Below, piece by piece: positions 32 through 10,713 of a DNA stretch of 25,090 bases. The stretch lies in IMG/VR virus record IMGVR_UViG_3300044641_002118, positions 1-25,090 of that record, one strand, 5' to 3'. The position numbers and the translations under genes are program-made. Position 1 is the stretch's first letter. Each line of letters opens with the position of its first letter. Under the pieces are notes generated by a model, which saw nothing but the letters and a program-made list of their open reading frames with translations, did no database searches and was not told the origin of the DNA. This stretch comes from a virus.

Positions 32-346
32 TTAGCGCATTATGTATTTAAGCGCTGATACCAAATCGTTTATTGCTTGTGCTGCTGTAAAGTATATGTT
101 TTTCTTTGCCCTGTCAGATTTGTCAACATTAGCCATCCAAGTGGCTTTAAAAGACATTTTTGCTGCAATAGCCTGTAGCCTTACAATTTCAAGACTAGCA
201 GCCTGAAGTGGAATATCTGGTTTTATAATAATCTTTGCAATCATAGTTAGGGCAACGGTCAATTCCTCATCTTGCATATAGTCTGCAATTTCTGTTAAAC
301 CATTTACCATGTCAAGTGTTGTTTTTTGTGATCCTAGTTCAGACAT
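32..346 (-). CDS. Conserved phage-type helical protein, unknown function
   Basis: A 104-residue protein I cannot assign to a function. It is predicted to be almost wholly helical, with an acidic N-terminal third (MSELGSQ, ADYMQDEEL) and a basic C-terminal third (DKSDRAKKNIYFTAAQAINDLVSALKY). I recall similar short proteins near recombination genes of actinobacterial phages, but that is memory, not a search. There is no signal peptide, membrane segment or cysteine cluster. The start is supported by a strong AGGAG Shine-Dalgarno about 8 bases upstream. It overlaps the end of the resolvase-like gene by 8 bases, which suggests translational coupling and a job in the same recombination or replication process. 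Confidence 0.75.
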   Translation of the reverse strand: MSELGSQKTTLDMVNGLTEIADYMQDEELTVALTMIAKIIIKPDIPLQAASLEIVRLQAIAAKMSFKATWMANVDKSDRAKKNIYFTAAQAINDLVSALKYIMR

Positions 347-804: not shown

Positions 805-1810
805 TAATTATTTTTTTCTTAAGTTGTTCTTGTAAATCTAAATCTTCTTTAACACGATCTATAAAACCATCACGACCTTGGACTTTTGTCCCATCATCTA
901 ACTGATACCATGCACCAGTTCTATTAACTAGCCCCATTGATTCTGCGGTATCAACTAAATCTCCTATTGCATCAATACCAATATTGTCACCTCTAAAATA
1001 AAAATCATACTCACCAGATTGGAACCCTGGAGAGGTTTTAGAGAATTGTAATTCCCAACGAATTTTTCTACCAATTTTTTCTTCAATTAATTTATCCCCC
1101 ACCTTAATCTTTCCTTTAATTGCTTGATTTTCTGACTCAGAAGAAAACAACTTAATTACGCAAGATGAATAGAACTTGGTAGCCTGACCGCCAGAAGGTT
1201 GTTGACTTGTGTACATTGCATTAATATTATTTCTTGATTGTGAAATAAGCACAAGCAATGTAGGCTTTACTTTATTATTAGCATAGTTAAGCATTTTCCA
1301 GGCGTTGCTAAAGTCTCTAGACTCTGCACCAATTTGTTTTGTATTTTCAAGTGCTTTCATTTCGTCTGAATCTTTTTCAAAGTATATAGCAGGAAGCATT
1401 GAAGTAATTGAATCAATTACAATCAGGTCAACGCCAGCATTAATAAGACCAACACCAACATCTACCATGTCGCTAATAGTACGTGCTTGAGAGTAAATTA
1501 ATTTTGTTGGATCTACCCCCATTTGTTTAGCCCAGTCTTCTGAGTAAGACATTTCAGAATCAATCCATGCACAAACCTTGCCTTCTGCTTGCGCTAAAGC
1601 AATCATCTGTAAACACATAGATGACTTAGCCGATGACTTACTTCCCCACACAAGCACTTGTCTGCCGTATGGCAGTCCACCTCCTAGTGCACGGTTTAAT
1701 CCAAAACTTGGAGTTGGCTGATACTCAAAGTTAATTCCTTCTCCTGTGCCAAGACGTTTTCTAATTCTTGGGTCTAACTGTGATAGTACATCTTGTATAT
1801 TAACTGACAT
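797..1810 (-). CDS. recA: RecA-family recombinase
   Basis: A 337-residue ATP-dependent strand-exchange protein, close to the usual RecA length. The core aligns by eye with bacterial RecA. A Walker A region GSKSSAKSS lies at residues 56-64. The catalytic glutamate is in WIDSE (E86). Walker B is LIVID at 129-133. An L2-like segment runs ISQSRNNINAMY through PSGGQATKFYSS. The C-terminal domain contains DLVDTAESMGLVNRTGAWY and QGRDGF. It is closer to RecA than to T4 UvsX. The odd feature is the P-loop, which has alanine (A61, codon GCT) where the invariant glycine before the lysine is expected. K62 and S63 are kept. The start has a strong GGAGG about 8 bases upstream and overlaps the end of dnaE by 11 bases, so the two are probably co-translated. 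The likely role is recombination-dependent replication and repair of phage DNA. Confidence 0.95.
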   Translation of the reverse strand: MSVNIQDVLSQLDPRIRKRLGTGEGINFEYQPTPSFGLNRALGGGLPYGRQVLVWGSKSSAKSSMCLQMIALAQAEGKVCAWIDSEMSYSEDWAKQMGVDPTKLIYSQARTISDMVDVGVGLINAGVDLIVIDSITSMLPAIYFEKDSDEMKALENTKQIGAESRDFSNAWKMLNYANNKVKPTLLVLISQSRNNINAMYTSQQPSGGQATKFYSSCVIKLFSSESENQAIKGKIKVGDKLIEEKIGRKIRWELQFSKTSPGFQSGEYDFYFRGDNIGIDAIGDLVDTAESMGLVNRTGAWYQLDDGTKVQGRDGFIDRVKEDLDLQEQLKKKIINA

Positions 1811-4800
1811 TTACATCCTCCATAATTACCGTGCCATCTTTGGTTTTACCAAAACTAAATTTATACGACTTGCCTTCTTCAATATGCATATATGCTTTTG
1901 GAAATGCAGTAGGAAATACTGTTACTGAGTGCAGGTCTCTTGAAGTATCTGCCAAGGTTAGAGAAGCCATTTTCTTTCCAGCCTTCGTTATTCTTGATTT
2001 AAATGAAACAACAAACATCTCATCTTCTGTATAAGGTAATTGCTTATAACTTAAAAATTTAACAAGTGCATTTGTTGATCCTTTTACTTCATCAACAGGA
2101 ATTGCAGAAACAATCCTATTGTCATTAGCAAGAACCAAGTAAGTACGACCTGTTTCAATAGTCGTTCCTTCTTCATCAAATATACCAACACTCCCAGTTT
2201 TGTCAAGAATTTCAACTCGTGACCATCCCTTTCCTCGTTTAATTGCTTTAACCATGCCCATTAAAATAAAAGATCCTTTTTCTTCAAAATCTTCAATTGA
2301 TTGAATAAATGCATAATAGTGAGATGGAATAGAAATATTAAACTCTGGAAGATTTAGATACTCATAAAGATTTTCTTTAATGTCTTCATCGTTACGTGGA
2401 TTATCAGAAAATGTTGCAGCACCAGTCAGCCTTAGTGCATTTAAGGCTCTACTGTTTACGCCATTACCTTTTGTAAATGTAAACTCTTCAAGTTGCTTAT
2501 AACTATTAAATGGTCTTGCATCAATATATTTTTGTGCAATGTTGTTTGAAATAAATTTAATACCAGTTAAGCCAAAACGAATTCCCTTACCCTCAATTTT
2601 AAAATCTAAATCTGAATCATTAATATGTGGCAATTTAACTGAGATGCCCATACGTTTTGCTTCAATCAAATACTCTGTTCTACCATCCTTATCTTTTTCA
2701 TTTTTAAGAAGGGCAAACATAAATTCAAGCGGATAGTAATATTTTAACCACGCCGTCCAATACGAGAGAGTAGAGTAAGCAACTGCGTGGCTTTTGTTAA
2801 ACGAGTATCCCGCATGCTCTTCAAAGTCGTGCCAAAGGTCCAAGGCTTTATTAGGAGATATGTACTTACTCGCCCCAGCAACAAACCTATCTTGAAATAT
2901 ATTGAACTCTTTTGCATCTTTTTTCTTTCCAATAATCTTACGAACTTTGTCAGCCTCTGCCATTGTCATTCCACCAAGATAAACGCAAGCCTGCATAACC
3001 TGTTCCTGATAAAGGATACACCCATATGTATCATCTGTGAATTCTTTCATGGTTTGATGAACATAAGAAACGTTTTGCTTACCGTGTTTACGAGCAATAT
3101 AATCTTTACCAATAGTATTCATAGCGCCTGGACGAACTAAAGCATTTGATGCTGCTAACTCATTAAAATTCTTTACTCCCATTTTTACTAGGAGGTTTGT
3201 ATATGGTGTTGCTTCACACTGGAATACACCTTTTGTATACCCGTCTGAAAGCATCTCATATACTTTTGGATCTGCCATATCAATTGACAAAAGATTAATA
3301 TCTTGATAATGATTTTGTTTAATCATATCAATACAATCTTTTACTACACTTAAAGTTTTAAGGCCTAATGCATCAATTTTAATAAGGCCAATCTTTTCAG
3401 CCTCTTGCATATCAACACCAACCACAGGAATGCGATCATCGGATCCAGGAGAAGAGCGAGTCTCCAATGGCGCATACCTAAATATTGGATTCTTACTAGT
3501 AACCACACCAGCAGCATGAATGCCAGTACCTCTAATACGACCACGTAACTGTTCTCCATAAATTTCTACCTCTGGATATTTTTCTCTAAACGATAATGTA
3601 GTTTTAGATGTGCAATATTCATCCCAAGTATCCACTAACTTTAATACTTTATTAACATCTGTTAATGGTATATCTAAAACTCGTGCAACATCTCTTACAA
3701 CACCTTTATCTTTAAATTCAAGAAATGTAGCAATAGATGCTACGTGTCTATACTGTCTAACTAAATAATCTTTTACTTCATCACGACGGGCATCTTGAAT
3801 GTCTGTATCAATATCAGGAAAGTCATTACGCTCTGGATTAATAAAACGAAAAAATAAAAGTCCATGCTCTAGTGGATCTATATCTGTAATGCCAAGCATA
3901 TAACAAACTAAAGAACCAGCAGAGGATCCACGACCAGGACCAACTAAAATTCCTTCTTTCTTAGCCCAATTAATCATGTTTTGAACTACAAGAAAATATG
4001 GAGCAAATTTTTTATCTTTAATAATTTCAAGTTCTTCATCTAGTCTTAACTCATAAGAATCATTTCCTAACCAAGAAGATGTTAATTTTTTATCACTTAA
4101 CGCTTGCCATGCTAGGTCTTTTAGTTGTTGATCTGGATTTTTATATTGAACAGGAAGTAAATTTAGTCCATCTTTAATGTCATAATCTTCTACTGTGTCT
4201 GCTAGCAATAGTGTGTTTAAGTATATGTCTTCTCTATCAATACCCTGTTTTTCCATTGCTGCTTTAATCTCTTCATACGAAAGAAGATGAATATCAAATT
4301 TGTTAAATGTTATATCACGATCATGACCATATAAATAATCAAGTCGTTCCATCATATCTGTTTTCTTTTTAGACTTTTCGTATGTTGCTTCTTTGTTTAC
4401 TTTTCCATGTGTATTTAAAATCAACTTAAATTCTTGTATTTCTTTTTGCAATGTATCTGAATGATGACAGTCTGGTGTGACAACAACTTTTATATTAAAC
4501 TCATCAGCAAGTTCAATAAGATATTTATTTATTTCTGGTGTATTGTGTGGCATAACCTCAATGTAATAATCGCTACCAAAATTATCTTTAAACCATGTAA
4601 TATGTTTTTTAGCAAGTGCAAATTCTTGTTCTTCTAATGCTTTAACAATAACGCTACTAGGACAGGCAGAGGTTACAATAATTCCTTCTTTATACTTTTT
4701 AAGAATCTCAAAGTCAAACCTTGGTTTCTTAAAAAATCCATCTGTCCATGCAATTTCACTAATTTTGTTAAGGTTTTCCAAACCCTTTTGGTTCTTGGCT

Positions 4801-5087
4801 AGAAGGACAATGTGATTGTAGACAAGATCTTGTTGACCTTCTCTTTCAGACTTATCTCTTTTATCAGATATGTCTGCACACATGTACCCTTCTAGACCTA
4901 GAATTGGCTTAATACCCTTTTCTTTTGCAGCACGATACAGTTCTCTGTGACCAGAAAGTGTACCGTGATCTGTAATTGCAAGGGCGTTCATACCCAACTT
5001 GCTAGCACGGTCTACATACTCTTGTGGAGTTGCTATGCCGTCAAATAGGGAGTAGTGAGTATGAACATGTAAGCCTACGTAGTTCAT
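1800..5087 (-). CDS. dnaE: DNA polymerase III alpha subunit (C-family, DnaE type)
   Basis: A 1095-residue replicative DNA polymerase. The N-terminal PHP domain (about 1-270) keeps all nine metal-ligand positions of active PHP exonucleases: H7, H9, D16, H41, E66, H92, C142, D206 and H208. The polymerase core shows VGPGRGSSAGSLV (382-394), the PDIDTD motif with catalytic D427 and D429, the third aspartate D572 in IKIDALGL, then ILYQEQVMQ (691-699) and GYSFNKSHAVAYS (760-772). After a helix-hairpin-helix region come two segments that look like OB folds, about 936-1000 and 1019-1095; the second ends the protein, so the usual tau-binding domain is missing. No clear clamp-binding QxxLF peptide is seen. 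It starts one base after the ssb stop codon with only a weak ribosome site, so coupling to ssb is likely. Confidence 0.97.
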   Translation of the reverse strand: MNYVGLHVHTHYSLFDGIATPQEYVDRASKLGMNALAITDHGTLSGHRELYRAAKEKGIKPILGLEGYMCADISDKRDKSEREGQQDLVYNHIVLLAKNQKGLENLNKISEIAWTDGFFKKPRFDFEILKKYKEGIIVTSACPSSVIVKALEEQEFALAKKHITWFKDNFGSDYYIEVMPHNTPEINKYLIELADEFNIKVVVTPDCHHSDTLQKEIQEFKLILNTHGKVNKEATYEKSKKKTDMMERLDYLYGHDRDITFNKFDIHLLSYEEIKAAMEKQGIDREDIYLNTLLLADTVEDYDIKDGLNLLPVQYKNPDQQLKDLAWQALSDKKLTSSWLGNDSYELRLDEELEIIKDKKFAPYFLVVQNMINWAKKEGILVGPGRGSSAGSLVCYMLGITDIDPLEHGLLFFRFINPERNDFPDIDTDIQDARRDEVKDYLVRQYRHVASIATFLEFKDKGVVRDVARVLDIPLTDVNKVLKLVDTWDEYCTSKTTLSFREKYPEVEIYGEQLRGRIRGTGIHAAGVVTSKNPIFRYAPLETRSSPGSDDRIPVVGVDMQEAEKIGLIKIDALGLKTLSVVKDCIDMIKQNHYQDINLLSIDMADPKVYEMLSDGYTKGVFQCEATPYTNLLVKMGVKNFNELAASNALVRPGAMNTIGKDYIARKHGKQNVSYVHQTMKEFTDDTYGCILYQEQVMQACVYLGGMTMAEADKVRKIIGKKKDAKEFNIFQDRFVAGASKYISPNKALDLWHDFEEHAGYSFNKSHAVAYSTLSYWTAWLKYYYPLEFMFALLKNEKDKDGRTEYLIEAKRMGISVKLPHINDSDLDFKIEGKGIRFGLTGIKFISNNIAQKYIDARPFNSYKQLEEFTFTKGNGVNSRALNALRLTGAATFSDNPRNDEDIKENLYEYLNLPEFNISIPSHYYAFIQSIEDFEEKGSFILMGMVKAIKRGKGWSRVEILDKTGSVGIFDEEGTTIETGRTYLVLANDNRIVSAIPVDEVKGSTNALVKFLSYKQLPYTEDEMFVVSFKSRITKAGKKMASLTLADTSRDLHSVTVFPTAFPKAYMHIEEGKSYKFSFGKTKDGTVIMEDVNVS

Positions 5088-5088
5088 C

Positions 5089-5745
5089 TTACCAATCTGT
5101 GTTGGTTGATGAAGTTACAGATGGAGTATCAAACCCCAAATAAAATGCTTCTTGTTCAGCATAAGGAATTTTCTTTAATGCTAACTCAAGAGCGTATGGC
5201 TTGTATGCTGACCAGTCAAATGGTTCTTTGTCTGGTGCAGATGGAATAAGTGTGTAACTTGTTTCAGTACCCTGACCGTTACGCTTTAATTTCCATGAAA
5301 TGTTTGAGATGCTTCCTGTTTCAAGAGCATACTCACGAATAGTATTAAATGCAGATTGTTTACTTACGCCCATTGACCAAATGGCTACGTATGGCTCTTC
5401 AATGCCATCATCTACAAGTACGTTGCAATAAAAACGAAGACGTGCTCTCCAGCCAGCCTTTACATCTTTACGATGCATTTCTTCAGCCCAGTCACGACCT
5501 TCTGATTCCATTGTGTCTACAGCCTTGCGCTTATAGTCTTTTGGATTTGTGTGTTCTTTAACAACAAGTGCTAATCCACGATCTTTATTGTAGTTTGCAG
5601 AATCTTCGTCAAGTTCTTCAACAAATCTAATTTTTGCAGATTGTCCATCGGCAAGTTTTAACCATCTTACCTTTGGAGAGTTTTCATCATACTTTGGCTT
5701 GTCAACTAGGGCATTAATGTTCTTGAGTCCCTTTACAATAGTCAT
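5089..5745 (-). CDS. ssb: Single-stranded DNA-binding protein, phage type
   Basis: A 218-residue protein that resembles the phage single-stranded DNA-binding proteins related to T4 gp32 and common in actinobacterial phages. This is judged from KVRWLKLADGQSAKIRFVEELDEDS near the N-terminus, EHTNPKDYKRKAVDTMESEGRDWAEE in the middle, and RARLRFYCNVLVDDG followed by EEPYVAIWS. In relatives I recall, the middle section carries cysteines that may bind zinc; here it has only H and E at such points. The C-terminus (PYAEQEAFYLGF, then TSSTNTDW) has little acidic charge compared with usual SSB tails. The start has a strong AAGGAG upstream. Placed directly before dnaE, it would coat template strands for the polymerase and help load RecA. 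Confidence 0.8.
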   Translation of the reverse strand: MTIVKGLKNINALVDKPKYDENSPKVRWLKLADGQSAKIRFVEELDEDSANYNKDRGLALVVKEHTNPKDYKRKAVDTMESEGRDWAEEMHRKDVKAGWRARLRFYCNVLVDDGIEEPYVAIWSMGVSKQSAFNTIREYALETGSISNISWKLKRNGQGTETSYTLIPSAPDKEPFDWSAYKPYALELALKKIPYAEQEAFYLGFDTPSVTSSTNTDW

Positions 5746-5770: not shown

Positions 5771-6298
5771 TTAGTATCTTCTGTCGTATCCATTTTTATT
5801 TATTTGTTCTGCTGAAAGATCCCAGGTTTCGCTATTTTCCTGAATACCATGACCCTCAACAATTCTGTTGAATAAATTAAAAGCAGCACATACTGCAATT
5901 GCATCTTTTAACTCTTCTTCAGAAAATCCAGCATCAAACACGTCCTGTGCATCTTTTTTTGTAATTAAAGACGGACTTATAGTTAATTTTTTAACATAGT
6001 TTAAAATACTTTCAAGTCTATGTCCTAAGTAATTGTTTGATATTACTAAATCTATTTCTTCTTCTGGAACACCTAAAGATTTTGTAAAGACTTTATGTGA
6101 TCCAACACAAAACTTGCAACTATTTAAACTTGATGTAAATGTTGCAATTAGTTCTCTGTCTTGTTTAGATAAAAAAGAATCTTCTCTCAATATCTCTTGT
6201 GCAAAAGATAATAACATCATGTACTTTGATGGCCTTTGCATAAAAACATCAACAATTGTTGAGTTGTCATTTAAAGAAGTAAATATTTTTTCGCTCAT
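5771..6298 (-). CDS. AhpD/carboxymuconolactone-decarboxylase-like peroxidase-related protein
   Basis: A 175-residue all-helical redox protein of the AhpD-like superfamily. Numbered from the longer possible start at 6310, the signature is C65-K-F-C68-x-x-x-H72 in LNSCKFCVGSH, preceded by DRELIATFTSS and followed late by NLFNRIVEGHG, all typical of peroxidase-related members. The two cysteines would cycle between dithiol and disulfide to reduce hydroperoxides. I prefer the ATG at 6298 because GGAG lies 6 bases before it, and nothing like a ribosome site precedes the ATG at 6310. The gene is much poorer in GC than its ssb neighbour (13 of 60 bases at 6001-6060 against 27 of 60 at 5401-5460), which suggests later gain. 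It is an auxiliary metabolic gene candidate; its substrate is unknown. Confidence 0.9.
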   Translation of the reverse strand: MSEKIFTSLNDNSTIVDVFMQRPSKYMMLLSFAQEILREDSFLSKQDRELIATFTSSLNSCKFCVGSHKVFTKSLGVPEEEIDLVISNNYLGHRLESILNYVKKLTISPSLITKKDAQDVFDAGFSEEELKDAIAVCAAFNLFNRIVEGHGIQENSETWDLSAEQINKNGYDRRY

Positions 6299-6308: not shown

Positions 6309-6312
6309 ATTA

Positions 6313-6627
6313 TTAAAGTATTAATTCAAAATGTTTTAAAATAAATGTAATAGCAAGAACGCTCCACAATATATTAAACCAGATTAAAGTTGGAATAGTT
6401 TTTATTGTTGATGACCAAATAAGACCCAAACTTGATATTAAAGCAAAAATATAAAACCACCAAATGCTAATATCAAATAGTAAACCTGGAAGAATAATTG
6501 CTGCTTTTGCAACAAATGCAAAAAATTCAACAGTATTTGCTTTAGTCCAGTATTTTTTATGACCCATTGTTTTTAAAGCAATGACCCATTCCATGTGCTT
6601 GTTTTTTGTTTTATTTTTCATTGTCAT
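6313..6627 (-). CDS. Small integral membrane protein
   Basis: A 104-residue protein with a basic, Asn/Lys-rich N-terminus (MTMKNKTKNKHMEW) and two or three likely membrane segments, about 33-50 (VEFFAFVAKAAIILPGLL), 52-71 (DISIWWFYIFALISSLGLIW) and 78-97 (IPTLIWFNILWSVLAITFIL). No family is recognised. It sits between primase and the AhpD-like gene and is AT-rich like the latter. It could be a membrane partner of that redox protein or a holin-like lysis protein, but nothing in the sequence decides between these. Its size and segment number are compatible with a holin, yet no endolysin gene is adjacent. The ribosome site is weak, and the gene begins 5 bases after the primase stop. Confidence 0.75.
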   Translation of the reverse strand: MTMKNKTKNKHMEWVIALKTMGHKKYWTKANTVEFFAFVAKAAIILPGLLFDISIWWFYIFALISSLGLIWSSTIKTIPTLIWFNILWSVLAITFILKHFELIL

Positions 6628-6632
6628 CTTTT

Positions 6633-7556
6633 CTATTTTAGCATACTGGTGATAGAATTGTCAAACTGAAACTCCAGTTTTTTAATTGCATCATCATCCA
6701 TGTCGCCTATATCTTTATATTTTTTATCTATGTACACAGAAGTAACAACAGGTCCAAGTCTTTGAATTAACTTATCTCTCATTATTATTCCTGCGTCATC
6801 GTTATCTGCAATCAAAACAATACTATTAAAATACTTTTCTAATAGTTTTATCTGTGCTGCAGAAACATTAGCCCCCAGCGTAGCAACAGCAGGGAGTCCT
6901 ACTTGATCTAACCTAATTGCATCAAAAGAAGACTCTACTACATAGACAATGCTTGAAGTCTTTATTCTATGTAAATTAAATAGGGTCTTGCCTTTTGGCA
7001 AACCAGGAGTATTCTTAAATTCTTTACCTTCAATTGTTCTAGCAACAAATCCGATACACATACCGTCTGGAGAGTGTACTGGAATTGTAACTGAATCTTG
7101 TTTTTCTGAATAGCCAAGATTAAACTTTACTATTGAGTCTTTAGTTATTTTTCTACCTTCGTAATACCGAATTGCTCTTGGAGACTCTAATGCGTTATTA
7201 TTTAATCTTTTAATTAATAATTCGTCATATTGAACAAACTCTGGCTTATTTATCAATGCTTTATTTACTGATGTTTCAATACTAGTTTCTTGCTCTTTGC
7301 TTTTGATGTATCGTATTGCCTCAAAGTATGTTCTATTGGATACATACATTACAAACTCAACAAGGGTTTTTGTGGTTTGACATCCAAAACAAAAAAACAA
7401 TCCATGCTCTTTTGATACTTCGCCAGCGGGGGTTCTGTTGTTATTGTGATATGGACAAAATATAATGTAGTCTGTTCCATACTCAGCCTCAATATCAATA
7501 CCAGCACCAGTCAACACACGGTTAACCTGTTCTGAAGAATAAATTTCTTTAATCAT
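6633..7556 (-). CDS. DnaG-type primase
   Basis: A 307-residue primase that makes RNA primers for lagging-strand synthesis. The N-terminal zinc domain shows the CHC2 pattern C34-P-Y-H37 with C56-F-G-C59. A DnaG-like core follows (RYYEGRKITKDSIVKFNLGYS, then a FVARTIEGKEFKNTPGLPKGKTLFNL-type stretch in shortened form). The TOPRIM fold has E208 in YVVESSFDAI and the D251-N-D253-D254 motif. It is about half the length of bacterial DnaG and lacks a full C-terminal helicase-binding domain, so contact with the helicase must differ or be carried by another protein. It overlaps the stop codon of the upstream 241-residue gene by one base (TAATG). Confidence 0.93.
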   Translation of the reverse strand: MIKEIYSSEQVNRVLTGAGIDIEAEYGTDYIIFCPYHNNNRTPAGEVSKEHGLFFCFGCQTTKTLVEFVMYVSNRTYFEAIRYIKSKEQETSIETSVNKALINKPEFVQYDELLIKRLNNNALESPRAIRYYEGRKITKDSIVKFNLGYSEKQDSVTIPVHSPDGMCIGFVARTIEGKEFKNTPGLPKGKTLFNLHRIKTSSIVYVVESSFDAIRLDQVGLPAVATLGANVSAAQIKLLEKYFNSIVLIADNDDAGIIMRDKLIQRLGPVVTSVYIDKKYKDIGDMDDDAIKKLEFQFDNSITSMLK

Positions 7557-8281
7557 TATTTATAACTCTTTCTTGTCCAAAATTTATTTTTATAGTTTCT
7601 AATTATATTTAAATTAACATTATTAAAAAAATTTAATAATAAATTTTTTTCATATTTTTTTTCAAGAGATATCCAGTTGTCTCTTTTAATTGGAATAATT
7701 TGTGCAATTGGAGTTCCTTCTTCTATAATACCTTCAAATCCATTTTTAATAAAAAATGGCAAAAATAAAGAATTTGGATGCTTATCTGTATCAACAAATC
7801 CAGTAATAGTAAAAAATGGTAAATCGTGCCTATGGGATGGATGAGTTATCCATAAACTGTGTCCGCTTGGTGTTATTATTTTCCAATCTATTGTCCATCT
7901 ATAAAATGTATTATTAAAATTATCTGGCACTGGATAGTTTCCTAAAGATCTACCATCTTGAACATCTAGTACTGGAAAGTTTGTTTGCCATTCAATATAA
8001 GGAATATAGTTTTTACCTGCTCCAATATTTTTTACAAAAATATCTGCTGGTAATTCAAGAATATATCCAGCAGTCAATGAATCCGTTACGGGAACACAAA
8101 GTTTGTACGTACGGCCATAGTTGTCTTTCTTTTTTGCTTTTAACAAAATATTTTCATTATTTGTAAAAAGTTTTTGATTTTTATACCAGTCTGGCACATA
8201 AGTTGTTGATGGTCTTGGTTTTTTTAATAGTCCACCTACATGCTCTTTTGCTTGTTGAAAAATAATTTTTTTATTTTTCAT
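7556..8281 (-). CDS. DUF6065-like phage protein, unknown function
   Basis: A 241-residue protein of a type I recall as widespread in environmental and cyanobacterial phages, possibly the DUF6065 group. The function is unknown. Recognisable points are VPDWYKN near residue 30, a GYILELPAD strand at 72-80, a histidine- and proline-rich core TPSGHSLWITHPSHRHDLPF (137-156), TGFVDTDKHP (160-169), and GFEGIIEEGTPIAQIIPIKRDNW (181-203). The G-x-V-D-x-D and GTPIAQ phrases faintly recall beta-rich dUTPase or dCTP-deaminase folds, but the diagnostic active-site motifs are not there. The 3' end is extremely AT-rich (17 G or C in 7561-7680). It sits between helicase and primase with an ATGA overlap to the helicase gene, so it is expressed with them. 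Confidence 0.7.
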   Translation of the reverse strand: MKNKKIIFQQAKEHVGGLLKKPRPSTTYVPDWYKNQKLFTNNENILLKAKKKDNYGRTYKLCVPVTDSLTAGYILELPADIFVKNIGAGKNYIPYIEWQTNFPVLDVQDGRSLGNYPVPDNFNNTFYRWTIDWKIITPSGHSLWITHPSHRHDLPFFTITGFVDTDKHPNSLFLPFFIKNGFEGIIEEGTPIAQIIPIKRDNWISLEKKYEKNLLLNFFNNVNLNIIRNYKNKFWTRKSYK

Positions 8282-9501
8282 GCCTTATCCTCATAATCCT
8301 TGTAACGGTAGTATCCTCTATCAAAGTCTACCTGAACCAAAAAGTCTCCCATAAAACCATTTCTATTTTTTCTAAATACACATTCAATAATATCACTATT
8401 CGTGGCACGACCTAAAGCCATTACCCAGTCAGCATCATAAGCAATTTGTCTTGACCAAGCAGTTTGTCCCAAAGTTGGCGGGGTAGAAAGATCTTTAACA
8501 TCATCTGGAGTAGCAGATGAAATAGCAATAATAGGAACCTCTTCGCTAATAGACATAAGTTTAAGTTCTCGTGAAAGGTTTTTCATACGTACTGTCTCAC
8601 TATCAGCCTTTTGGTTTGGTGACATTAATTGTAGATAATCAACAACAACAAAGTCTGGTTTATACTGATCAATCTTTCCACGTATAACTGAAGGAGTTAA
8701 ATCTCCGCCATTATCATTAGAGATAATGTGAAACTCTGGCCTGCCTTCTAATTTATCTGCATGCCACTTTTTAAGCATTTCAATTTCTACTTCGCCATTA
8801 CTAAGTTTACGATGAGACCATAAGCCTTCACCCATAATTGCAAATACACGATTACGAACTTCTGTTTCAGACATTTCAAGACTTATGATAAGTGGGCTAC
8901 GACCCTGCTTCCAGGCCTGTACAGCGAAGTACAGAGCCAACCAAGACTTTCCAATACCTGGATATGCAAGGAAGACTCCTAATTGTCCTGGCATGATTCC
9001 AGAAGGTAAGTAGTTATCAAACCCTGGCAAACCTGTTTTAATTCCAATGTGACCTAGGCTTTGCATTTTCTTTACATTCTCAAAGTATGCAATTGCTGAC
9101 TCAAGATCTGTTACTTCAATATCTCTTATTGCAGCAGTATTCTTTTTTAATTCTGATGTTTTTGTAATAATATGTTCAAGAGCCTTTGATCCATTTCCGC
9201 CTTGAACTTCAGATGCTGCATTACGTAAAATGTCTTTAAGGCTATCATTGAGGTATTCTGTTTGTAATTCTTCAAGGTGATGCTTTGTTGCACCAACACC
9301 TTCTACTGGTACAAAGTCTCTAAATTTTTCTACAACTAAAGATGCTGGCGGAACTGATTGATTATTTTCTGAGTATAGTCTAATAAATTCCCAGACATCG
9401 TTATGGGTTCTTAAAAGGTTGTCAACATTTGCTTGCAGTAATACGTGGACTTGTTTATCGTTTAATACTGCAGTTATTAACTTTGCTTCTGTATTATTCA
9501 C
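8278..9501 (-). CDS. dnaB: Replicative DNA helicase, DnaB type
   Basis: A 407-residue hexameric helicase of the DnaB/RecA-like ATPase class. Residues 1-120 form a helical N-terminal domain shorter than in bacterial DnaB. A linker follows, then the ATPase: GIKTGLPGFDNYLPSG (153-168), Walker A AYPGIGKS (179-186, K185), the catalytic glutamate in SLEMS (E209), Walker B VVVDYLQLM (285-293, D288), and a C-terminal FRKNRNG that carries the finger-type basic residues. The start is GTG, not ATG, with AAGGAAG upstream. It overlaps the previous gene by 8 bases. It should unwind the fork ahead of the phage-encoded polymerase and stimulate the primase encoded two genes downstream. Confidence 0.95.
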   Translation of the reverse strand: MNNTEAKLITAVLNDKQVHVLLQANVDNLLRTHNDVWEFIRLYSENNQSVPPASLVVEKFRDFVPVEGVGATKHHLEELQTEYLNDSLKDILRNAASEVQGGNGSKALEHIITKTSELKKNTAAIRDIEVTDLESAIAYFENVKKMQSLGHIGIKTGLPGFDNYLPSGIMPGQLGVFLAYPGIGKSWLALYFAVQAWKQGRSPLIISLEMSETEVRNRVFAIMGEGLWSHRKLSNGEVEIEMLKKWHADKLEGRPEFHIISNDNGGDLTPSVIRGKIDQYKPDFVVVDYLQLMSPNQKADSETVRMKNLSRELKLMSISEEVPIIAISSATPDDVKDLSTPPTLGQTAWSRQIAYDADWVMALGRATNSDIIECVFRKNRNGFMGDFLVQVDFDRGYYRYKDYEDKA

Positions 9502-9802
9502 TAATCCACTTCCTTGCTAACTTTCTTCGTTCTTCTCGTTCTTTAATATCTTGCTCTACTTCTATTTTACCACTAAGAATTTTTTCTGCATTGTATGCAA
9601 AATAATTCCAAGTAGGACTTTCTGCTATCTTAAAATAATAATCTAATAAATCATAACATTGAGAAATTCCGTAAGATTCAACGAGGGCATCTGCAGCCCA
9701 TTGTTCAACATTAAGATTCATGTTGCTTTTGGCTTCATATCTTTGTAGATGCAACTTATTGTATCTACTGAGCAAAGCCATACGGTCTTTGCGTTCAGTC
9801 AT
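9494..9802 (-). CDS. Possible helicase-loader-like protein
   Basis: A 102-residue helical protein placed immediately before the helicase gene. It is rich in charged residues and ends in a strongly charged helix (EVEQDIKEREERRKLARKWISE). The middle reads ALVESYGISQCYDLLDYYFKIAESPTWNYFAYNAEKI, a pattern that resembles the small helical domains of phage replication-initiation and helicase-loading proteins. There is no ATPase motif, so it is not a DnaC-type loader. The role is inferred from position and general character. Its start codon overlaps the stop of the 70-residue gene (TAATG), and no separate Shine-Dalgarno is seen. Confidence 0.7.
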   Translation of the reverse strand: MTERKDRMALLSRYNKLHLQRYEAKSNMNLNVEQWAADALVESYGISQCYDLLDYYFKIAESPTWNYFAYNAEKILSGKIEVEQDIKEREERRKLARKWISE

Positions 9803-10014
9803 TATTCGTTACTGTCGGCCTCTGACTCGGCTTCTTTAACTTTTTCTGTTAACTTTTCTTCAACAAATTTATAAATTCTTTCAAAAGCCTGCTCTGTGTT
9901 TTCGTCATCACGCTTAGAATCAACTACTCCAAAATCAAACCTCAATGACTGAAAGTTTCCCAGATTAAGTGTATATCCAAGTGCTACCGATATTTTTGTA
10001 TTTTCGTTTTCCAT
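9802..10014 (-). CDS. Small conserved phage protein, unknown function
   Basis: A 70-residue protein with a beta-prone N-terminal half (ISVALGYTLNLGNFQSLRFDFGVVD) and a highly acidic helical C-terminal half (ENTEQAFERIYKFVEEKLTEKVKEAESEADSNE). I recall small proteins with the phrase GYTxNLGNFxSLR in replication regions of actinobacterial phages, but no function is known to me. The start has a TGGGG-type ribosome site upstream. It begins 19 bases after the helix-turn-helix gene and leads into the loader-like gene with a one-base overlap. Confidence 0.75.
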   Translation of the reverse strand: MENENTKISVALGYTLNLGNFQSLRFDFGVVDSKRDDENTEQAFERIYKFVEEKLTEKVKEAESEADSNE

Positions 10015-10033
10015 TACCCCACCATTTCTATTA

Positions 10034-10576
10034 TTAAATGTTTTCTGCCCAAACAGGAATAAATCTTCCGTCTTCTGTCTTCGTATATGTAAGTATACCG
10101 TCTCCCATTCGCCGTGTCAATTCTTGGCTTGTAGGTGTCATATTATTTGTTATAAGTCCGTCTTTTCTTGGTTGTCCTATATGTATAGTAGCCAGTATAG
10201 CACGAATGTCCCTTACCATGCTTTCTGAATAATATGATCTAATTTGCCAACCTCTTTCACCATTTAATCTTGCTCCAATTGGTTTTGGTATCATTCCAGT
10301 TTTCATTAATTTTGGCATATATTTTCTGTGACGATTAATTAACTTAGCAGTCTCAGCAACAGTGTATGCACGTTCTCTGTTTTTTCTAAAATCAGAACGG
10401 AGACATGTTTCAAGTCTATCTTTAGTAATATTGTAAACAGAAACCATTCCAGTAGATCTTGAACTATGATGTAGCCTTACAAGGTCGCCGTTAAGAAACC
10501 ATATTTTTTTATTTCCTTTTATTACAGTTTCGCTATTGTAGATTTCGCTCTGGATAATTCCTTTGCTAGTAACCAT
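10034..10576 (-). CDS. Helix-turn-helix DNA-binding protein, MerR/excisionase-like
   Basis: A 180-residue protein. Residues about 68-130 form a MerR/excisionase-type winged helix-turn-helix: RAYTVAETAKLINRHRKYMPKLMKTGMIPKPIG, then GWQIRSYYSESMVRDIRAIL. The N-terminal 60 residues (IWFLNGDLVRLHHSSRSTGMVSVYNITKDRLETC) look like a small beta domain. The C-terminal tail is QELTRRMGDGILTYTKTEDGRFIPVW. It may bind phage DNA as a regulator or origin protein. AGAAGG 3 bases before the ATG supports the start, even though this places 55 bases of the gene inside the upstream zinc-ribbon gene. It sits at the border of tail and replication genes, a sensible place for a timing switch, but its target sites are not known. 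Confidence 0.8.
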   Translation of the reverse strand: MVTSKGIIQSEIYNSETVIKGNKKIWFLNGDLVRLHHSSRSTGMVSVYNITKDRLETCLRSDFRKNRERAYTVAETAKLINRHRKYMPKLMKTGMIPKPIGARLNGERGWQIRSYYSESMVRDIRAILATIHIGQPRKDGLITNNMTPTSQELTRRMGDGILTYTKTEDGRFIPVWAENI

Positions 10577-10713
10577 CTGCCTTCTTCGCTTTCTGCTGGG
10601 GGATGAAAAAATTTTCTAACTCCACACACCAGACAATATGTTTCCATATGTTGCATACTGCTGTACTGCCTATCAACAAAAGTTCTACCTTTACATTTTT
10701 TACAATAAATCAT
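10522..10713 (-). CDS. Zinc-ribbon protein
   Basis: A 63-residue protein with two CxxC knuckles, C4-K-K-C7 and C27-L-V-C30, spaced as in a single zinc ribbon (MIYCKKCKGRTFVDR, then MQHMETYCLVCGVRKFF). The rest is a charged helix (EEGRWLLAKELSRAKSTIAKL). Such small ribbons often bind nucleic acid or RNA polymerase; which applies here is unknown. It is the first gene after the tail module. Its ribosome site is weak. It shares 55 bases with the next gene in a different frame, an unusually long overlap for this window. Both frames look genuine from their motifs. Confidence 0.75.
   Translation of the reverse strand: MIYCKKCKGRTFVDRQYSSMQHMETYCLVCGVRKFFHPPAESEEGRWLLAKELSRAKSTIAKL

Follow-up and report, generated by a model that had tools for sequence, protein, structure and literature searches.

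An intact AhpD-like gene among replication genes

Why a phage should carry a peroxidase-related gene among the genes that replicate its DNA is the question raised by positions 5771-6298 of a 25,090-nucleotide stretch of IMG/VR record IMGVR_UViG_3300044641_002118 (hereafter the window). The gene, called ahpD here, is an open frame of 175 codons on the minus strand, and none of 2000 same-length base shuffles of this interval remained open. Its ATG at 6298 is closely preceded by GGAG, and an alternative in-frame ATG at 6310 would give a product of 179 aa; the cysteines that an earlier note on this DNA had numbered C65 and C68 match the longer form and are C61 and C64 in the 175-aa protein. They lie within the motif CKFCVGSH, which also supplies H68 and has E49 upstream. 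This is the sole CxxCxxxH on the minus strand of the window, and the plus strand has one further match, within the pol III gene.

The protein is matched by the Pfam CMD family (PF02627) at an E-value of 4.9e-11 (42.9 bits, cut-off 23) and by the NCBIfam AhpD core domain TIGR00778 (32.8 bits, cut-off 27.8). Thus, by sequence, the window gene is a member of the CMD/AhpD superfamily, and the earlier description of an intact CxxCxxxH peroxidase-related gene holds. The best family is the peroxidase-related subfamily TIGR01926, for which the window protein reaches 78.8 bits, 3 bits below the cut-off of 81.8, whereas it scores 13.2 bits against a cut-off of 191.95 for AhpD sensu stricto (TIGR00777). 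All 13 aligned relatives match both TIGR01926 and TIGR00778 at E-values up to 1e-3, and solved relatives in the PDB comprise 6k40, 3c1l, 2oyo, 2pfx and 2prr. With TIGR01926 and the AhpD/CMD proteins of PF02627 (6k40, 3c1l, 2oyo, 2prr), the phage protein shares the fold family, as judged by sequence, the CxxCxxxH motif and the upstream glutamate; it differs in having its own conserved C-terminal stretch, IxxxGYD, and in belonging to a subfamily that is almost confined to phages in our survey of IMG/VR and cellular genomes.

E49, C61, C64 and H68 are invariant in the 13 aligned relatives. The roles of these residues, namely the CxxC pair and the histidine and upstream glutamate of a proton relay, we take from M. 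tuberculosis AhpD. Protection against oxidants is a known function of AhpD-like proteins, and the part of the earlier proposal that assigned the protein to thiol-redox chemistry and oxidant removal is supported by this conservation. The statement that ahpD has half the GC of ssb is incorrect: ahpD has a GC content of 0.299 (29.9%) and ssb one of 0.390 (39.0%), and the other two module-type genes of the window, TM (0.270) and DUF6065 (0.271), described below, are AT-rich like ahpD.

A cargo slot between primase and ssb

The surrounding genes are for DNA replication, as the earlier note had stated. Profile matches identify RecA (797-1810), DNA polymerase III alpha (1800-5087), ssb (phrog_9721; 5089-5745), DNA primase (6633-7556) and a DnaB-type helicase (8278-9501), all on the minus strand, and a conserved gene, g1 (32-346, minus strand), is the final gene before the left end of the window. 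The placement of ahpD between primase and ssb is right for the region, but ahpD does not adjoin the primase: a gene for a 104-aa membrane protein (TM; 6313-6627) intervenes, so that the order is primase, TM, ahpD and ssb, with small gaps. The nearest annotated relatives of the polymerase are those of Streptomyces phages (55%), such as BillNye, and from its sequence the window virus looks like a freshwater actinophage. Beyond dnaB, at 9494-10713, lie four small conserved genes (g9494, g9802, g10034 and g10522), which are matched by PHROGs of unknown function and whose order beside dnaB is mostly kept in relatives.

A dnaB scan of IMG/VR gave at least 599 stretches, of which at least 594 were confirmed. 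Among the best 80 of these loci, the primase-ssb gap is mostly empty where it is readable; some loci contain TM there, and one (L013, on the contig of L001) contains ahpD. The gap between dnaB and primase is a second slot, holding a DUF6065 gene in the window and orf108 in others. We also scanned IMG/VR for ahpD; an early alignment yielded 17 loci and a broader one, of 13 sequences, yielded 46. In clade members of the 46-locus set, the primase-ssb gap contains ahpD with a halogenase, ahpD-TM-halogenase, ahpD-TM, TM-ahpD or ahpD alone. The nearest long ahpD-bearing relative (L008; 91.7 kb, ahpD 82%) has the order ahpD-TM, opposite to that of the window, and carries a halogenase approximately 8 kb downstream, behind a RuvC-like gene. 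In other phages, inspection by eye places ahpD between genes of tail type and portal type, or next to WhiB-like genes. In L222 and L223, the WhiB-like gene stands immediately before ahpD (by eye, in L222); in actinobacteria, WhiB proteins act as redox-sensitive regulators.

The primase-ssb gap is therefore a cargo slot. A function of AhpD in the replication operon was considered and rejected, since the slot holds cargo and the gene is sited elsewhere in other phages. That ahpD lies inside the replication operon, as previously emphasized, is true of its position but seemingly beside the point, and production at the time of DNA synthesis, although plausible for the window, fails as a rule across the ahpD family.

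The most constant company of ahpD is a halogenase

A survey of neighbouring genes, suggested by the earlier note, found that the most constant company of ahpD in related phages is not replication genes but flavin-dependent halogenases. A halogenase of the PF04820 (tryptophan) type is present in 37 of the 46 ahpD records from IMG/VR, within the locus in 33 and elsewhere in the record in 4. All 13 ahpD records of at least 45 kb have one, and the nine records without are 5.9 to 41.9 kb long. Clustering at 90% identity gives 22 clusters, 17 of them with a halogenase. Within 100 bp of ahpD lies a halogenase in 19, TM in 13 and either of the two in 32 of the 46. Four phages whose replication genes are unrelated (L227, L232, L233 and L236) share the order HAL-DUF6065-HAL-TM-AHPD, and in these operons TM and AHPD overlap by 1 nt. 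Elsewhere the adjacencies are permuted, with AHPD-HAL, AHPD-TM, TM-AHPD, HAL-TM, TM-HAL, DUF-HAL, HAL-DUF and AHPD-DUF all observed. Across nine module halogenases one lysine column is invariant, which by its position we take to be the active-site lysine.

Close pairs of genomes show how this arrangement is maintained. Between L204 and L199, identity is 96% for dnaB, 93% for ssb and 78% for ahpD, but 31% for the halogenase beside ahpD; between L209 and L206 it is 85% for ahpD and 42% for the halogenase. Simple co-inheritance is excluded as the source of the ahpD-halogenase link, because the L204 and L199 halogenases are so divergent (31%) next to a dnaB that is 96% identical. Thus, the halogenase has been exchanged next to a retained ahpD, and the genes are permuted yet stay together.

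No halogenase is found in the window itself or in the nearest relative of its ahpD (L001/L195, 34 kb). Two longer records also have ahpD and no halogenase, namely L202 (41.9 kb), in which both the primase-ssb slot and the slot between the RuvC-like gene and terL are present, the latter empty, and L229 (40.4 kb). Either these records or the loci that carry TM and a halogenase and no ahpD could point to a general antioxidant function of AhpD, incidentally useful there. As a separate observation, a protein of 230-250 aa of unknown family adjoins the halogenase in L232 (1658-2362), L236 (4212-4910) and L228 (7330-8073); two of these three were without a Pfam match.

TM and DUF6065 are partners of the halogenases

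The TM gene at 6313-6627 (minus strand) encodes a halogenase-associated protein outside any Pfam family, with a predicted amphipathic helix and three predicted transmembrane helices. The family comprises at least 479 confirmed IMG/VR stretches and has 35 positions that are invariant across 56 sequences; a tblastn search of all INPHARED records found none. Among the best 80 TM loci, 42 were classed outside the phage clade, a class that includes one locus (L120) that lacks dnaB and is actually a clade member. A halogenase lies within 500 bp in 32 of these 42 and in the locus in 35, DUF6065 is present in 18 and ahpD in 4. Because only 4 of the 42 have ahpD, within the best 80 loci, AhpD is optional in the module. 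For 18 of the best 80, the whole virus record was searched and all 18 have a halogenase, including three (L122, L176 and L179) in whose loci none had been seen.

Within the clade, a halogenase is found in 12 of 13 records with TM or ahpD and in 0 of 14 records without (Fisher 7.5e-7, or 3.4e-6 once obvious duplicates are merged), a comparison that speaks to association and not to frequency, as the positives were selected for TM. The 14 negatives are clade members with records of 35 kb or more that have neither TM nor ahpD, the absence of TM being judged in the locus only; L018, which has both TM and a halogenase, was left out of them. In addition, 31 shorter records (10-34 kb; G001 is shared with the longer set) hold one halogenase, in G042, whose locus has neither TM nor ahpD. 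The TM protein therefore belongs to the halogenase-linked gene set. The model of TM superimposes on the MPC/SemiSWEET chain 9giy_A with a VIA Z of 8.0 and an rmsd of 4.2 over 92, which is within helical-bundle noise, at a Foldseek E-value of about 5. SdpI was considered as a possible relative, with a match for 12 of the 56 members (best E 0.0035).

The second partner is encoded at 7556-8281 (minus strand), a 241-aa DUF6065-like protein assigned by a match to phrog_7084, which in other phages often adjoins a halogenase. A model computed from 30 relatives (pLDDT 89.8) resembles trimeric dUTPases (Foldseek 2.3e-4) and aligns with 2py4 with a VIA Z of 10.2 and an rmsd of 2.6 over 116 residues; a G-x-V-D-x-D stretch also resembles dUTPase motif 3. 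By sequence, no known dUTPase was matched when the DUF6065 profile was searched against PDB chains at E-values up to 10. We note that the dUTPase-type fold is thus predicted from the model. DUF6065 is not tied solely to halogenases, because tailed viruses of haloarchaea commonly carry it as well: it occurs in 49 INPHARED records, haloarchaeal viruses by name, one of which, Hardygib1, is a virus of Haloferax.

A halogenase probably lies beyond the left end of the window

The window contains both TM and DUF6065, the two usual partners in the proposed module. In relatives, genes of 286 aa and 97 aa come after g1, then a RuvC-like gene, and then a halogenase in 7 of 10 TM-bearing loci, these ten being the close-group loci among the best 80 TM loci that reach beyond the RuvC-like gene, some of them near-duplicates. 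In the seven (L114, L115, L119, L127, L133, L135 and L136), the halogenase stands directly after the RuvC-like gene or one gene further on, at 7.5-8.2 kb from TM. No halogenase lies behind the RuvC-like gene in L120, L122 and L123, although L122 has one elsewhere in its record. The left end of the window is 6.3 kb past TM, so the corresponding slot would fall approximately 1.2-1.9 kb outside it. On the strength of this gene order, we consider it quite probable that a halogenase occupies the slot just beyond the left end of the window.

A proposed redox-protection role within a halogenation module

Taken together, we consider the odds to favour a reading in which AhpD, a phage CMD/AhpD-type thiol oxidoreductase, provides redox protection within a viral halogenation module. 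Such a module would have as its core one or two flavin-dependent halogenases of the tryptophan type, with TM and DUF6065 as the usual partners. Enzymes of this kind use FADH2, O2 and halide to produce hypohalous acid, and leak free HOX and H2O2. The available text of one study reports that flavin-dependent halogenases leak free HOX, and that part of the flavin hydroperoxide decays to H2O2, in Thal about 20% of it when the halide is bromide and 55% when it is chloride (PMC7948982). AhpD would then reduce HOX, H2O2, or the chloramines and hydroperoxides formed from them, at C64 and C61, with H68 and E49 as the proton relay, and might be re-reduced by the thioredoxin, lipoyl or mycothiol pool of the host. 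In the window phage, AhpD and TM would occupy the primase-ssb slot, DUF6065 the dnaB-primase slot, and the halogenase the position just past the left end. We infer the scavenging of HOX and H2O2, the electron donor and the presence of a halogenase in this phage. Precedents come from the available portions of two reports: the AhpD-like RclX, which retains four of five catalytic residues of M. tuberculosis AhpD, shields P. aeruginosa against HOCl and HOSCN (PMC7950407), and genes for AhpD-like proteins are found near that for chlorite dismutase, an association that is statistically supported as genuine (PMC9751292).

The earlier proposal, protection from peroxides in sunlit water, fits the data less well than oxidants from the phage's own halogenase, because halogenases are the most constant company of ahpD across phages. 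In a broader form, AhpD would be a general antioxidant auxiliary gene against environmental or host-made peroxides, its link to halogenases being a by-product of shared cargo slots. Genes for the mitigation of reactive oxygen species (ROS) occur in over 10% of the phages of one freshwater set, according to the accessible part of that report (PMC6802176). The catalytic residues of AhpD are also intact, and no halogenase accompanies ahpD in the roughly 40 kb of the L202 and L229 records. However, the linkage is specific to halogenase and TM and extends over unrelated genomes, varied neighbourhoods, overlapping genes and halogenase exchange, and a shared slot fails to explain the operons outside the dnaB clade. 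We therefore regard this explanation as rather unlikely.

A further alternative makes AhpD a catalytic or assembly part of halogenation itself, which would tailor the substrate or product by CMD-type chemistry or provide reducing equivalents for the halogenase. The CMD family includes non-redox enzymes, the coupling with halogenase, TM and DUF6065 is tight, and by eye no flavin reductase was recognised beside the inspected modules. This proposal nevertheless appears distinctly improbable, given that the CxxC pair, histidine and glutamate are invariant in 13 of 13 relatives, as fits redox work, and that many halogenase modules are without ahpD, which argues against an obligatory step. Finally, a role in which AhpD supplies thiols for DNA synthesis, such as those used by a ribonucleotide reductase, would explain why the gene lies between primase and ssb both in the window and in its clade, but is highly improbable because elsewhere ahpD lies far from these replication genes and remains with halogenases, and no ribonucleotide reductase is found among the scanned window proteins.

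Returning to AhpD as the redox guard of a halogenation module, a more speculative extension may be drawn, which we think unlikely to be right in full: freshwater phages may carry a self-contained halogenation system, consisting of exchangeable halogenases, a dedicated three-helix carrier in the membrane, a protein of dUTPase fold to bind or present a substrate of nucleotide type, and AhpD as the antidote to hypohalous acid, whose product, a halogenated nucleotide, metabolite or oxidant, would serve during infection as a weapon or for self-modification. The reshuffled but conserved partner set of AhpD, TM and DUF6065 provides handles on co-expression choices, on halogenase leakage and on carrier and substrate. 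In addition, 'antioxidant' genes of phages may answer oxidants of the phage's own making rather than sunlight or grazers.

Relation to known systems

Halogenases have long appeared among the listed genes of cyanophages. Those known as VirX1, which presumably originates from cyanophage Syn10, and from pelagiphage HTVC008M belong to PF04820, as does the module halogenase, which matches the VirX1 chain. With one query, 65 INPHARED records with a phage halogenase were found, whereas a tblastn search of all INPHARED records gave one weak match to ahpD. The annotated neighbourhoods of HTVC008M, Syn10 and DSL-LC01 name no AhpD, TM or DUF6065 product, many of their products being 'hypothetical'. Halogenases have also been described in a lake actinophage (PMC10611076) and among the auxiliary genes of cyanophages (20 of 153; PMC10452541), in the available text of both papers.

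RclX/RcsA of P. aeruginosa resembles the phage protein at the level of the family: it is an AhpD-family protein that removes hypohalous oxidants and works beside a chlorine-oxidant problem, but, unlike the phage AhpD, it has no halogenase partner in the available text of the two reports (PMC7950407, PMC9751292). RclX, a functional analogue of the phage protein, was modelled on Lpg0406, a different AhpD-like protein, and guards against external HOCl. Phage-mediated ROS defence (PMC6802176) is likewise phage-borne oxidant defence in freshwater, often in actinophages; its genes are those for ferritin, SOD, glutathione peroxidase, thioredoxin, glutaredoxin and reductases, and the stem 'halogen' is absent from the available main text. 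Membership of the module in a defence system was considered and rejected, PADLOC having returned no defence-system match for AhpD, TM, DUF6065 or one module halogenase. Thus, phage halogenases and ROS-defence genes of freshwater phages are already known, whereas the combination of AhpD, TM, DUF6065 and halogenase was not found in the open-licence literature, in which titles and opening abstracts yielded no paper tying AhpD/CMD, DUF6065 or TM to phage halogenases.

Cellular relatives

Close cellular relatives of the phage AhpD number only two, both in freshwater Actinomycetota MAGs (56%), and the sampled 296 genomes of the class and 396 of the phylum gave no other strong match; two further genomes of the phylum match at E-values of about 1e-26 to 1e-28. 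In the phylogeny of host and phage AhpD proteins that the earlier note had called for, the two cellular copies group with the phage copy of L207 (support 100/98), in a tree whose root is unusable owing to a very long outgroup branch. A cellular origin of ahpD was considered and set aside, such relatives being scarce among the genomes sampled; transfer may have gone in either direction. Matches to the halogenase profile in the two MAG genomes are short, covering 45-47 model positions at 21.1 and 19.7 bits (cut-off 21), and were not counted. The ahpD of the Acidimicrobiia MAG (L100, 5327-6505), with no halogenase near it, lies by eye beside genes resembling those for a sugar ABC transporter and xylose isomerase.
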